Assembly: GCA_029865605.1 (NCBI GenBank)
Contig: JAOUGE010000007.1
Location: 1 to 47,408 of the forward strand
Origin: Candidatus Berkelbacteria bacterium
GTDB lineage: Bacteria > Patescibacteriota > UBA1384 > DTJR01
Direction: 5' to 3'
Length of the DNA: 47,408 bases
This document shows positions 31,420-36,313 of this stretch, one piece after another. The stretch's first letter is position 1. Every line of letters begins with the position of its first letter. The position numbers and the translations under genes were made by a program. Below the pieces are notes generated by a model. It saw nothing but the letters and a program-made list of their open reading frames with translations, had not been told where the DNA came from and did not search any database.

Positions 31420-31488
31420 GGAAATATGGCACGGGGTACCTGGGTGCACAAGGCGCGGATGCGCCGAGGGTTCCCAGCACTCCGACCA
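31420..31488 (+). repeat. Element B1 with displaced tRNA-Pro 3' end
   Basis: Core CAAGGCGCGGATGCGCCGAGGGT then TCCCAGCACTCCGACCA. Confidence 0.6.
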
Positions 31489-31525: not shown

Positions 31526-31599
31526 GCGGGTATAGCACAATGGCAGTGCGTCTGCCTTCCAAGCAGAATACACGGGTTCGACTCCCGTTACCCGCTCCA
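31526..31599 (+). tRNA. tRNA-Gly(TCC), CCA encoded
   Basis: Acceptor GCGGGTA/TACCCGC; loop CTTCCAA. Confidence 0.95.
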
Positions 31600-31728
31600 A
31601 CGAGATGACTAAAGGTCATATTTCGTTGGGGCACGAGGAGGCGAAGGCCAGAGCGCGACGGCGCGAGGCGGGGTCGACGGCAAAATCAGCAGATTTTGAC
31701 CGGTGACCGACTCCCGTTACCCGCTCCA
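31600..31728 (+). repeat. Element A1 + duplicated tRNA-Gly 3' end
   Basis: Ends with a 21-nt copy CGACTCCCGTTACCCGCTCCA of the preceding tRNA. Confidence 0.8.
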
Positions 31729-31730
31729 AA

Positions 31731-31806
31731 GCCCCAGTAGCTCAATGGATAGAGCAGCACCCTTCTAAGGTGAAGGTTGCAGGTTCGACTCCTGCCTGGG
31801 GTACCA
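31731..31806 (+). tRNA. tRNA-Arg(TCT), CCA encoded
   Basis: Acceptor GCCCCAG/CTGGGGT; loop CTTCTAA. Confidence 0.95.
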
Positions 31807-31952
31807 GATTTTTGTGACTGCCCTAACGGGGCAAGCGCAAAAATATTTGGGAGCCGCAGGAGTCGAAAGCCGGAGCGCGACGGCGCGAGGCGGGGTCGAT
31901 TGGCTCGCCAGCAGGCGAGAACAAGTGACCGACTCTCCTGCCTGGGGTACCA
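31807..31952 (+). repeat. Element A2 + duplicated tRNA-Arg 3' end
   Basis: Ends CTCCTGCCTGGGGTACCA as in the preceding tRNA; core homologous to A1. Confidence 0.8.
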
Positions 31953-32008
31953 CACAAATTGAAAATTGAAAGCGCAGAATGTAAAATTGAATTCAAAATT
32001 TTAAATAT

Positions 32009-32084
32009 GGTGGTCGTAGCTCAATTGTAGAGCACAAGCCTGTGGAGCTTGAGGTTGCGGGTGCAAATCCCGTCGACCACCCCA
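32009..32084 (+). tRNA. tRNA-His(GTG), CCA encoded
   Basis: G-1, GTGGTCG/CGACCAC, loop CTGTGGA; upstream TTGAAA-17-TAAAAT (31959-31987). Confidence 0.94.
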
Positions 32085-32087
32085 TAT

Positions 32088-32654
32088 ATGATAAATAAAG
32101 GTTACAAATTCTGCCCGAAATGCGCTGGGAAACTAAAGTATCAATCCTTCGATAGCGCACAACATCCAGTTTGCCAAAGGTGCGGGTTTATTTTTTTTCA
32201 GAATTCGAAACCTACAGCCGGCGCAGTTATTGAGGACAGAAAAGGGAGGGTCCTGCTTCACAAAAGGGCCGAAAGCCCAAGACGTGGATATTGGGATATC
32301 CTAGGCGGTTTTCTAAACAATGGCGAAGATCCTATCGTGGGCCTAAGGAGAGAAATGAAAGAGGAACTCGGAGTTAATATCAAAGTGGGAGATCTCATCG
32401 GAATCTATACTGACTCGTATATGCACGATGAAGCGATAAAAAACTACACTCTAAATATCCAATACAGGGTTCAGCTTAAAACTAATTCACTTAAGCCAAA
32501 CCAAGAGATTGCCGAGCTCAAATGGTTTTCAGAGAATGAGGTTCCTTGGAATAAACTCGCCTTTAAAAGCCAGCATCTAATTTTAAAAGACTATTTCAGG
32601 CAATATAAAGATGACAAAAAAAGAAAAACTGGTAAGAGTTCGCAAATTAGTTGA
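32088..32654 (+). CDS. Zinc-ribbon NUDIX hydrolase (NudC-like)
   Basis: CPKCAGKL...CQRCGF, GGFLNNGEDPIVGLRREMKEELGV; ATG 3 nt after tRNA-His CCA. Confidence 0.88.
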   Translation: MINKGYKFCPKCAGKLKYQSFDSAQHPVCQRCGFIFFQNSKPTAGAVIEDRKGRVLLHKRAESPRRGYWDILGGFLNNGEDPIVGLRREMKEELGVNIKVGDLIGIYTDSYMHDEAIKNYTLNIQYRVQLKTNSLKPNQEIAELKWFSENEVPWNKLAFKSQHLILKDYFRQYKDDKKRKTGKSSQIS

Positions 32655-33294
32655 GCCCATTTATCGGAAGCTTAAGATCTGGCCACACGGCTGGTCTCAC
32701 GTTAAAAATGTTGCGAAGTTTACTAAGTTAATTGCTGAAAGAGAAGGAGAAAATACCTATTTGTGTCAACTTGCTGCGTATCTCCATGACCTAGGCAGAC
32801 TTCAAGAGGAGGCAAGAGGACCGGTCGACAGGACACCGGGTGTTCAAGGGCATGCGGAGCTATCAACAGAACCTGCAAAAGAAATTCTAGACAAAGTTAA
32901 AGGTCTCCAAGAGAAAGATAAAAAGGCCATTATTGAGGCAATCCATTACCACTCCCTTAAAGAGTTCCCCACCCGCAATCCAATAGGATTAATTCTCCAA
33001 GACGCCGATAAGTGGGATGGAATAGGCAGGTTTGGGGCTGCCCGCCTGGCCGCGTTTAACGCAGAAATGCCGATAACAGGATCGGAAGCTCGTTCAGACC
33101 CCGACAAAGTGCTGGAAAAAATACTGAAGTTTGCCTCTAATAATAAAAATCAGCGAGACAAACTAATAACCGCAATGAGATTTGTTGTTGAGTGGTACGA
33201 TCTACTCAACACAAAATCGGCTAAGGAACTTTTGAAAAAGGACTGGGAGTTTTCAAAAAAATATCTCCAAAAGTTAGAAGAACTTAACCGTTGA
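32611..33294 (+). CDS. HD-domain phosphohydrolase
   Basis: HGWSHVKNV...YLHDLGR...HYHS...DADKWDGIG. Confidence 0.85.
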   Translation: MTKKEKLVRVRKLVEPIYRKLKIWPHGWSHVKNVAKFTKLIAEREGENTYLCQLAAYLHDLGRLQEEARGPVDRTPGVQGHAELSTEPAKEILDKVKGLQEKDKKAIIEAIHYHSLKEFPTRNPIGLILQDADKWDGIGRFGAARLAAFNAEMPITGSEARSDPDKVLEKILKFASNNKNQRDKLITAMRFVVEWYDLLNTKSAKELLKKDWEFSKKYLQKLEELNR

Positions 33295-33319
33295 GAAATA
33301 ACTGGTTTTAAGGTATAAT
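33291..33319 (+). promoter_or_regulatory. Promoter of tRNA-Arg remnant/tRNA array
   Basis: TTGAGA-17 nt-TATAAT. Confidence 0.75.
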
Positions 33320-33330
33320 CTTCTTGACTT

Positions 33331-33490
33331 GCCTCTGTAGTGAAACGGATATCACGCGACGCTTCGGACCAGGAGGTTGGGGGCTTGAGCGGGTGGAACG
33401 CGAAAGAGGCGCAGGCACGACGGTGCCGAGCCGGGGCCGACGGAAATTTCAGCAGAAATTTACCGGTGGCCGAATCCTGCAGGAGGCGAA
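33331..33490 (+). pseudogene. Decayed tRNA-Arg(TCG) interrupted by element A3
   Basis: Intact 5' half with D-arm (GCCTCTG, GTGA/TCAC, CTTCGGA). Then an A-type core 33395-33470, then degenerate T-arm/acceptor CGAATCCTGCAGGAGGCGA. Confidence 0.7.
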
Positions 33491-33511
33491 CGTTTAAAAC
33501 TAAAATTATTT

Positions 33512-33587
33512 GCCCTCGTAGCTCAATGGATAGAGCGCCTGGCTTCGGACCAGGAGGTTGCGGGTTCGACTCCTGCCGAGGGTGCCA
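33512..33587 (+). tRNA. tRNA-Arg(TCG), CCA encoded
   Basis: GCCCTCG/CGAGGGT; loop CTTCGGA. Confidence 0.94.
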
Positions 33588-33598
33588 CTTATTAAAAA

Positions 33599-33673
33599 GG
33601 GCCGTTAGCTCAGCGGTAGAGCAGTTGCCTCTTAAGCAATTGGTCGTGGGTTCGAATCCCACACGGCCCTCCA
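33599..33673 (+). tRNA. tRNA-Lys(CTT), CCA encoded
   Basis: GGGCCGT/ACGGCCC; loop CTCTTAA. Confidence 0.95.
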
Positions 33674-33677
33674 ATAT

Positions 33678-34280
33678 ATGACCAATTTAGAAAATTCACT
33701 AATATCAAATTTCTTGGGAGACCTGATCTCAAGTAAGGAACTTGATGGGAGGTCTAAGATTATTGAGGTTGTAAGAAGAACTGCTGAAATACCTTGGGGG
33801 GAAGGAAGAACGATTGAAGAAGTTCTCGATACGAAAAAGGTCGGAACTTGCACAGGCAAACACCTAGTCCTCCAAGCTTGCTTTGACAAGATCGAGGTTA
33901 GATATCAAACCGTTGTATGTACCTTTAAATGGGGCGATCAAACAATTCTCTTACCAGAGAACTTAAAAAATATCCTCCGCGAGGGCGAGTGGGAACATGG
34001 ACATAATTTTATCCAAATCAAAAATGAAAAAGAACAGTGGATAGACGCCGACGTTACCTGGAATTCAAAACTTAAGCCTTATGGATTTGAGACTTTTCCA
34101 TTAGCTTGGGACGGTCAAACATCTTTTGTGGGCGTCAGAAATATAATTAGTAAATGGGAGGGTAGAAACATCGCAGAGATGAAAAAAGAGCTAATAGAAT
34201 CCCTGTCAAAAGAAATGAGAGAGAGGAGAGAAAATTTTTTAAAAGGGTTTGTAGAGTGGGTTGCTTCAATTAACAAATAG
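33678..34280 (+). CDS. Possible transglutaminase-like (Cys-His-Asp) protein
   Basis: GTCTGKHLVL...HGHNFIQI...WIDADVTW; ATG 4 nt after tRNA-Lys CCA. Confidence 0.55.
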   Translation: MTNLENSLISNFLGDLISSKELDGRSKIIEVVRRTAEIPWGEGRTIEEVLDTKKVGTCTGKHLVLQACFDKIEVRYQTVVCTFKWGDQTILLPENLKNILREGEWEHGHNFIQIKNEKEQWIDADVTWNSKLKPYGFETFPLAWDGQTSFVGVRNIISKWEGRNIAEMKKELIESLSKEMRERRENFLKGFVEWVASINK

Positions 34281-34296
34281 CCCACACGGCCCTCCA
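34281..34296 (+). repeat. tRNA-Lys 3'-end duplicate, copy 2
   Basis: CCCACACGGCCCTCCA, identical to 33658-33673. Confidence 0.95.
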
Positions 34297-34317
34297 TCTT
34301 ATCTAAAATTAATAAAT

Positions 34318-34641
34318 ATGCATAAATCAATTAAGGATTTAACGGGTCATATTATGACCCAAGCCAAGTCAAAAGGCTTCGGTACAACACCGAAAGACAT
34401 TAATGTTGCAGAAAAAATTGCCCTGATTCATTCGGAAATTTCAGAAGCATTTGAAGCATATCGACATAAGAATATTGACGGCAAAGATGGTTTTAAAGAA
34501 GAACTTGGAGATGCTGTTCAACGGATCTTTCATCTTTGTGGAATATTCAAAATTGATATAGAAAAGGAAGTTCTTAAAAAAATAGAGGACAACAAAAAAC
34601 GTCAATGGAAATGGGATGATATTAATGAAACTCATGCTTAA
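34318..34641 (+). CDS. MazG-like nucleotide pyrophosphohydrolase
   Basis: EKIALIHSEISEAFEAYR...FKEELGDAVQRIFHL. Confidence 0.85.
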   Translation: MHKSIKDLTGHIMTQAKSKGFGTTPKDINVAEKIALIHSEISEAFEAYRHKNIDGKDGFKEELGDAVQRIFHLCGIFKIDIEKEVLKKIEDNKKRQWKWDDINETHA

Positions 34642-34649
34642 ACTAAAAG

Positions 34650-34694
34650 GTTCGCAAGGCGTGGATGCGCCAAGGGTTCCCACACGGCCCTCCA
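34650..34694 (+). repeat. Element B2 + tRNA-Lys 3'-end duplicate, copy 3
   Basis: GGTTCG-CAAGGCGTGGATGCGCCAAGGGT-TCCCACACGGCCCTCCA. Confidence 0.85.
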
Positions 34695-35703: not shown

Positions 35704-36096
35704 ATGAAAAAAGTTATTGTTTTCGGAACATTTGATCCCCTGCACAAGGGGCACATAAATCTCTTTAAACAGGCAAAAGGACTCGGCGACTACTTAACCG
35801 TTGTGGTCTCGCGAGACGAAAGCATAAAGAAATCGAAAAAGAGAGATTCTAGGGTTCCCCAAACGAAGCGTCTCGAAGCGCTTCGCAAAATAGATATAAT
35901 TGATAAAGTAGTAATTGGAGACTTCCCGGGCAAATATTCAGTTTTAGAAAAAGAAAGGCCTGATACCATAGCGTTAGGCTACGATCAGATAATCCCCCAA
36001 ACCTTGAAAGACAAACTAAAAGACTATATAATAATCAGGTTAAAACCGTATAAACCGGGGATTTACAAATCTTCAAAACTTGGCCCCATCATCTAG
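35704..36096 (+). CDS. Cytidylyltransferase-like nucleotidyltransferase
   Basis: FGTFDPLHKGHINLF; stop codon lies inside the tRNA-Glu remnant. Confidence 0.85.
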   Translation: MKKVIVFGTFDPLHKGHINLFKQAKGLGDYLTVVVSRDESIKKSKKRDSRVPQTKRLEALRKIDIIDKVVIGDFPGKYSVLEKERPDTIALGYDQIIPQTLKDKLKDYIIIRLKPYKPGIYKSSKLGPII

Positions 36097-36112
36097 CGGT
36101 TAGGATACCAGA
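36082..36112 (+). pseudogene. 5' half of tRNA-Glu
   Basis: GGCCCCATCATCTAGCGGTTAGGATACCAG; matching 3' remnant TGGGGTCACCA at 36281-36291. Confidence 0.8.
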
Positions 36113-36136
36113 TACATTATAATAAATTCAATTGGG

Positions 36137-36211
36137 GGTCCCATCGTCTAGTGGTTAGGACACCAGGTTTTCATCCTGGCAACAGGGGTTCGACTCCCCT
36201 TGGGATCACCA
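36137..36211 (+). tRNA. tRNA-Glu(TTC), CCA encoded
   Basis: GGTCCCA/TGGGATC; flanked by inverted repeat ATAAATTCAATTG/CAATTGAATTTAT. Confidence 0.95.
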
Positions 36212-36313
36212 ATTGAATTTATCAAATAGGGTGTAGCAATTTGTAAAAGGCACTTTTGGGTACCACCCCAAAAGCCTCTTTGGGGTCACCAATAATAACA
36301 GGGTATTTTTATC

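Follow-up and report, generated by a model that had tools for sequence, protein, structure and literature searches.

Family A is a DNA insert without genes, about 150 bases long, found in the 3' part of tRNA genes in the ultra-small Patescibacteria; it rebuilds the interrupted tRNA and has a hairpin fold that is strictly conserved. Three copies, A1 to A3, occur in the window, by which we mean the whole stretch of 47,408 nucleotides from a Candidatus Berkelbacteria bacterium that was analysed. The inserted unit comprises a tail copy, a spacer hairpin (P0), a guide and two further hairpins, H1 and H2, and it leaves behind a rebuilt tRNA and a displaced tail. Units come and go between orthologous sites, and the core fold and the tRNA-specific guide are conserved. 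Family A was previously undescribed, and our literature searches returned no description of it; its size, its absence of genes, its conserved fold and a guide matched to each tRNA are all new. Read as an integrative element, it would be among the smallest known, one by which tRNA genes are repeatedly interrupted and then rebuilt. It also constitutes a new folded recombination or RNA substrate, in which complementarity to the target tracks the host gene.

The three copies and the helices described for them in the original prediction are all present in the sequence (Table 1). Their ends differ from those proposed, however, as the copies had been thought to finish by joining a tRNA. A1 and A2 instead end in a displaced second 3' tail, running from position 57 to CCA, of the tRNA that lies upstream, and the site of A3 is a dead tRNA-Arg 5' fragment, with an intact tRNA-Arg gene shortly after it. 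The duplication of the tail, the tRNA-specific guide and the mobility of the unit had been missed.

Table 1 Parts of the three family A copies in the window
Feature	Position	Strand	Basis
tRNA-Gly(TCC), A1 host gene	31526..31599	+	ARAGORN, sequence
A1 host T-loop 54-56 (TTC)	31577-31579
A1 host tail 57-76	31580-31599
A1 spacer hairpin P0; TGG pairs with tRNA CCA	31597..31629	+
A1 guide GAGGAGGCGAA, imperfect complement to T-arm TTCGACTCC	31635..31645	+	sequence; guide/T-loop covariation
A1 hairpin H1 (GCC-AGA-GCGC-GACG-GCGC-GA-GGC)	31647..31669	+
A1 hairpin H2 (GGTCGA...AGCA...GTGACC)	31672..31708	+
A1 second tail, displaced copy of tRNA-Gly 57-76	31709..31728	+	direct repeat D4
A1 core, refined	31635-31708
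tRNA-Arg(TCT), A2 host gene	31731..31806	+	ARAGORN
A2 host tail 57-76	31787-31806
A2 spacer hairpin P0	31804..31850	+
A2 guide GCAGGAGTCGAA, complement to tRNA-Arg TTCGACTCCTGC	31856..31867	+	tail1:guide pairing, minimum-energy fold
A2 hairpin H1	31869..31891	+
A2 hairpin H2	31894..31930	+
A2 second tail, displaced copy of tRNA-Arg(TCT) 3' end	31931..31952	+	direct repeat D6
A2 core, refined	31856-31930
A3 dead tRNA-Arg 5' fragment, anticodon stem broken	33331..33383	+	direct repeat D2 with intact tRNA-Arg; no tRNA called here by ARAGORN
A3 hairpin CTTGAGCG-GGTGGAA-CGCGAAAG; guide pairs upstream, tandem G.A	33384..33406	+
A3 hairpin H1 (GGC-GCA-GGCAC-GACG-GTGCC-GA-GCC)	33408..33432	+
A3 hairpin H2, GGCC/GGCC variant	33435..33471	+
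A3 3' remnant, begins GAATCC, palindrome TCCTGCAGGA	33472..33492	+	sequence
A3 core, refined	33384-33471
tRNA-Arg(TCG), intact, after A3; the restored gene in the 5'-fragment layout	33512..33587	+	ARAGORN

With a covariance model (R1) based on 30 related copies, 19 copies were detected in the home genome, of which 99.5 percent was read, at E values from 2.5e-21 to 2.9e-10; there, 17 of the 48 tRNA and tmRNA genes bear a copy, so that up to a third of one genome's tRNA genes carry family A. Matches to R1 occur in 13 of 55 genomes of the class and in 52 of 380 genomes sampled from the phylum, a very large one among bacteria, which is about one in seven. We compiled 184 distinct copies. Carriers with GTDB names include Nomura-, Taylor-, Kaiser-, Berkel-, Adler- and Harrisonbacteria, and across relatives the family is either present in multiple copies or absent. 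A simple H2 pattern occurs at 42 places in 15 of 146 relatives, and a reversed-pattern control gave 0, so the three window copies are not due to chance. Outside the Patescibacteria, those exact-pattern hits that we inspected among the matches listed lack the fold, and many genome-wide pattern matches in high-GC actinobacteria and others, in which the fold is likewise missing, are chance. A phage or plasmid origin was also rejected: searches of phages and plasmids gave no family A match, and six pattern hits on viral contigs have no H1, no H2 pairing and no guide. The earlier remark that the element was not recognised as a known family is supported as well, since Rfam searched with the window returned nothing beyond tRNAs and chance hits even at E ≤ 10, with no family matching the element at its gathering score.

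The consensus runs from the guide (GGATTC plus GAA) through H1 (GCC-RSA-stem-loop-stem-GA-GGC), a GG and H2 (GGTCGM-NNN-N7-AGCA-N7-A-NNN-GTGACC) to a tail that starts at tRNA position 57. Covariation of this core is overwhelming. Among 30 sequences the score is 0.493, against 0.135 +/- 0.012 for shuffled alignments and at most 0.112 for slid controls, and the covariation first noticed in three copies persists in many more: 104 sequences, in an alignment that was fitted to the model and hence leans towards it, score 0.603, against 0.172 +/- 0.007 (shuffled) and at most 0.100 (slid), with both sides changed in 30 of 32 pairs. Tandem G.A oppositions take the place of Watson-Crick pairs at 57-58 as well as in H1 and H2.

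These data bear on whether the fold acts in DNA or in RNA. In the variable distal stem of H2, 665 aligned cells comprise 615 Watson-Crick, 40 G.A, 4 G.U and 2 A.C oppositions, whereas tRNA stems at the same loci contain 98 G.U and 11 A.C in 2,091 cells, making G.U rarer in distal H2 (p = 4e-8). Nor do H1, with 27 G.U and 22 A.C, and distal H2 show the surplus of G.U relative to A.C that is found in the tRNAs (p = 3e-6 for H1). Folded RNA under selection normally tolerates G.U, and its scarcity in H1 and distal H2 therefore favours a fold that acts at the DNA level, either as a single strand or through upkeep of a palindrome. By contrast, the base of H2, with an invariant G.U pair and a G.U-rich neighbour, looks RNA-like. 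The original prediction of selection on a folded RNA or single-stranded DNA thus stands as far as the covarying fold is concerned; between its two options we lean towards DNA over a plain RNA gene, and the G.U counts do not settle the matter.

Perfect Watson-Crick stems with few wobble intermediates would also be expected if the hairpins and tail copies were by-products of replication, created and kept perfect by template switching at palindromes near tRNA genes with neither selection on the fold nor dedicated mobility. Every part of the unit is an inverted or direct repeat of a tRNA end, and the T-arm is itself palindromic. Copying errors, however, would not be expected to conserve core sequence (GGTCG, GTGACC and the GA/GGA loops) and like geometry across a phylum, or to replace Watson-Crick pairs so regularly by tandem G.A at 57-58, and we regard such an origin as improbable.

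The relation of family A to tRNA genes is close and directional. In a typical copy, an intact tRNA with its 3' tail (tail1) is followed by the spacer hairpin, a guide that complements the T-arm of that tRNA, H1, H2 and a second copy of the same tail (tail2) from T-loop position 57. Directly upstream of 133 of the 184 distinct copies lies an intact tRNA or tmRNA gene on the same strand, at a median distance of 49 nt; most others have a tRNA tail fragment upstream, lie at a contig edge or show a second layout, in which a dead tRNA 5' fragment and the element precede an intact tRNA of the same type by 10-55 nt (Arg, Ile, Lys, Gln, Ala and Glu). The targets comprise tRNAs of 19 isotypes plus tmRNA, and some tRNAs bear two or more units in series, some with divergent cores. 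A rebuilt gene plus a displaced fragment, here an intact tRNA accompanied by a second copy of its own tail, is what integration at a tRNA gene characteristically leaves behind. A T-loop of TTCAAATCC goes with AAATCC at the start of the tail after H2 and with GGATTTGAA as the guide, which places the start of the copied tail at position 57.

The guide tracks its tRNA, including T-loop bases 54-56, which are missing from tail2. At 111 loci, the pairings of T-loop triplet and guide triplet include TTC/GAA (95), TCC/GGA (3) and TGC/GCA (3), with few contradictions, several of which are misplacements by the script. This match shows that constraint or upkeep also acts on the integrated form. The two tails are identical over 57-73 at 70 of 117 loci, and in many copies tail2 decays while the guide stays. 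In 24 informative cases, tail1 and tail2 differ at 57-62; the guide agrees with tail1 in 18 of these, with tail2 in 5 and with both equally in 1, a result that weakened our initial preference for guide:tail2 pairing as the selected structure. In form-2 copies, the guide does not pair with the tail that follows. Two loci (L095 5122-5209 and L160 106-438) carry an extra hairpin between H2 and the tail and retain complementarity of the guide to the displaced T-stem strand.

Comparison of orthologous loci in four genomes of one genus (G140, G191, G198 and G358) captures both states of six sites. Inserts are present at tRNA-Ala in G198 and G140 (empty in G358), at tRNA-Arg(GCG) in G198, G191 and G358 (empty in G140), at tRNA-Arg(TCT) in G191 (empty in G358), at tRNA-Arg(CCT) in G198 and G191 (empty in G358 and G140), at tRNA-Lys(TTT) in G191 (empty in G198 and G140) and at tRNA-Lys(CTT) in G191 (empty in G140 and G358). 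Occupied and empty sites differ at all six loci by one unit plus a tail copy, and the copies are thus inserted elements that are cleanly gained or lost. At the tRNA-Lys(CTT) of G191, tail2 has the sequence of the empty relatives, and tail1, the guide and the T-arm differ from it. In G198, nearly identical cores are common to different tRNAs (Arg, Gly and a tmRNA-type tail). Turnover may be slow, as some copies, such as that at tRNA-Arg(GCG) in three species, have not moved since the genus split or an even earlier time.

Retention at some orthologous tRNAs would also suit a cis-acting RNA in tRNA 3' trailers, serving as a switch or as a signal for processing: pairing of the guide with the T-arm would spoil the tRNA, and pairing with tail2 instead would leave it unharmed. 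The guide is complementary to both tails, the bases joining the three-way junction are conserved, and the strongly folded spacer hairpin sequesters the tRNA CCA in 47 of 56 loci. Against this role stand gain and loss between congeners, the presence of multiple copies or none across relatives, and the decay of tail2 while the guide persists; enrichment of TTTT in the spacer is only moderate (47 versus 34 of 86). We consider a trailer function unlikely.

Somewhat less probable again, in our judgement, is an intron-like RNA, in which a small self-acting T-loop RNA would use the guide as an internal splint that holds 54-56 beside 57 onward and would be spliced out of, and again into, tRNA transcripts. 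The guide does complement TTC and GAATCC across the 56/57 boundary of the T-loop, with a covarying triplet; form-2 copies have a hairpin of the T-loop side and guide followed by H1 and an H2 that ends exactly at the 3' boundary; and sheared G.A and G.U motifs are conserved. No tRNA was found that needs the unit removed, however, as tail1 completes the tRNA and ARAGORN calls intact tRNAs. G.U pairs are scarce in the variable stems, RtcB is absent from all 37 genomes searched, including the home genome, and the home genome, with its 19 copies, has no reverse transcriptase (RVT_1). The unit, at ~100 nt, is also below the size of known group I and group II introns.

As the best explanation, to which we assign a little less than an even chance, we propose that family A is an integrative micro-element, non-autonomous and without an ORF, whose insertion point lies between T-loop positions 56 and 57 of tRNA and tmRNA genes and which is moved as a folded-site circle. 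In this circle, H2 would connect to the unit's own tail, and the guide would pair with that tail, closing a three-way junction of guide/tail, H1 and H2. A recombinase supplied in trans, either host Xer or a helper integrase, could recognize this folded single-strand site and exchange strands between it and the T-arm of a tRNA gene. Only insertions with a fitting tail leave the tRNA functional, which would explain the constant match of tail and tRNA, and a guide that follows tail1 in 18 of 24 cases is expected if the circle is the selected form. Counting against the circle, neither a circle nor a junction sequence was seen.

A unit of ~150 bp has no room for an ORF and hence encodes no integrase, and no dedicated recombinase was found among the families searched. 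The home genome (G000) and several other element-bearing genomes have no Y1 (RAYT) transposase. The one tyrosine recombinase of the home genome has its best scores with XerC/XerD models, clears no cut-off except that of 'XerA / integron integrase' (NF040815) and falls far below integron-integrase cut-offs; comparison genomes mostly have one or two tyrosine recombinases, whether or not they carry the element, and three element-free genomes have none. An enzyme of an unrecognised kind in the home genome is possible, as the scan covered selected protein families. In another genome (G097, L403 11329-15718), a 4.2-kb island with a copy of CCCGACCA at its far end lies between tRNA-Pro and a family A copy plus tail, and encodes a large serine recombinase (phrog_95; Resolvase, Recombinase and Zn ribbon). 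The home genome has no relative of this recombinase; we rejected the enzyme as the mover and read the island as a later insertion into the tRNA end. The same survey makes an RNA-guided, OMEGA-like system, with H1-H2 as guide-RNA scaffold and the following tail as guide, very hard to credit: a scaffold followed by ~20 nt of target-like sequence has the appropriate order, and GGTTC, which always precedes the target, might serve as a motif, but no TnpB/Cas12f-like protein exceeds the cut-off in 33 genomes, the home genome included, and an intact target adjoins the unit in every genome.

More broadly, the proposed micro-element resembles several known systems. Like tDNA islands, it places an intact tRNA beside a displaced fragment in the same orientation, in both a 3' form and a 5' form, the rarer one among islands, and the fragment that it carries restores the tRNA; tmRNA is used by both (PMC4383910). 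The crossover region in the T-loop is shared with class II integrases, for example that of phage Ms6 (PMC1762012), and relatives have empty orthologous sites, at six loci for family A. In contrast to these islands, which span kilobases, family A is ~150 bp long, has no integrase and no ORF, has a covarying fold and uses many tRNA types per genome. Islander rejects islands under 2 kb, and family A was overlooked because island finders discard inserts that are short or lack an integrase. Integron attC sites and cassettes likewise have folded, imperfect hairpins conserved more in structure than in sequence, serial units at one anchor and a crossover beside a stem, but for family A no clear integron integrase, R/L box motif or ORF was found, and its anchor is the tRNA T-arm, not attI. 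Repeats of the REP/BIME and MITE types are also short, gene-less, interspersed, hairpin-bearing and presumably moved in trans; family A differs in being tRNA-bound, in duplicating a tail and in having a target-specific complementary arm, and from REP/RAYT pairs in the lack of a RAYT transposase in the home genome. Finally, the junction-spanning complement resembles the internal guide sequence of group I introns in bacterial tRNA genes, whereas family A, with a ~100-nt core, has no group I core and no Rfam match and leaves the tRNA whole and unspliced. A further possibility, which we hold tentatively and would not bet on, is that family A represents a previously unknown class of mobile element with neither an enzyme of its own nor a recognised dedicated helper, which would be aimed, by a complementary arm matched to each tRNA, at the T-arm of almost any gene for a tRNA or tmRNA and be recombined as a folded single-stranded nucleic acid, much as in integrons, with tRNA genes as landing sites. 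With family A, what moves gene-less elements in Patescibacteria becomes a question accessible to direct test.

Between A2 and A3 (32010-33294), a NUDIX ORF lies within a few bases after tRNA-His, with an HD-domain ORF next in line. At 33599-34694, tRNA-Lys(CTT) is followed by two ORFs without a Pfam match, each closed by a 16-nt copy of the 3' tail (34281-34296 and 34679-34694); this is a gene-carrying, cassette-like series at a tRNA gene. Ahead of the displaced tails that follow tRNA-Pro and tRNA-Lys (31430-31488 and 34649-34694) stands a second type of hairpin (AAGGCGYGGATGCGCC...GGGTTCCCA), possibly another T-arm-associated family. At 36083-36291, a 5' fragment of tRNA-Glu(TTC) itself lies upstream of the gene (~36083-36112), behind a nucleotidyltransferase-like ORF, and a second, tail-like fragment follows the gene (~36273-36291); this suggests further insertions there.
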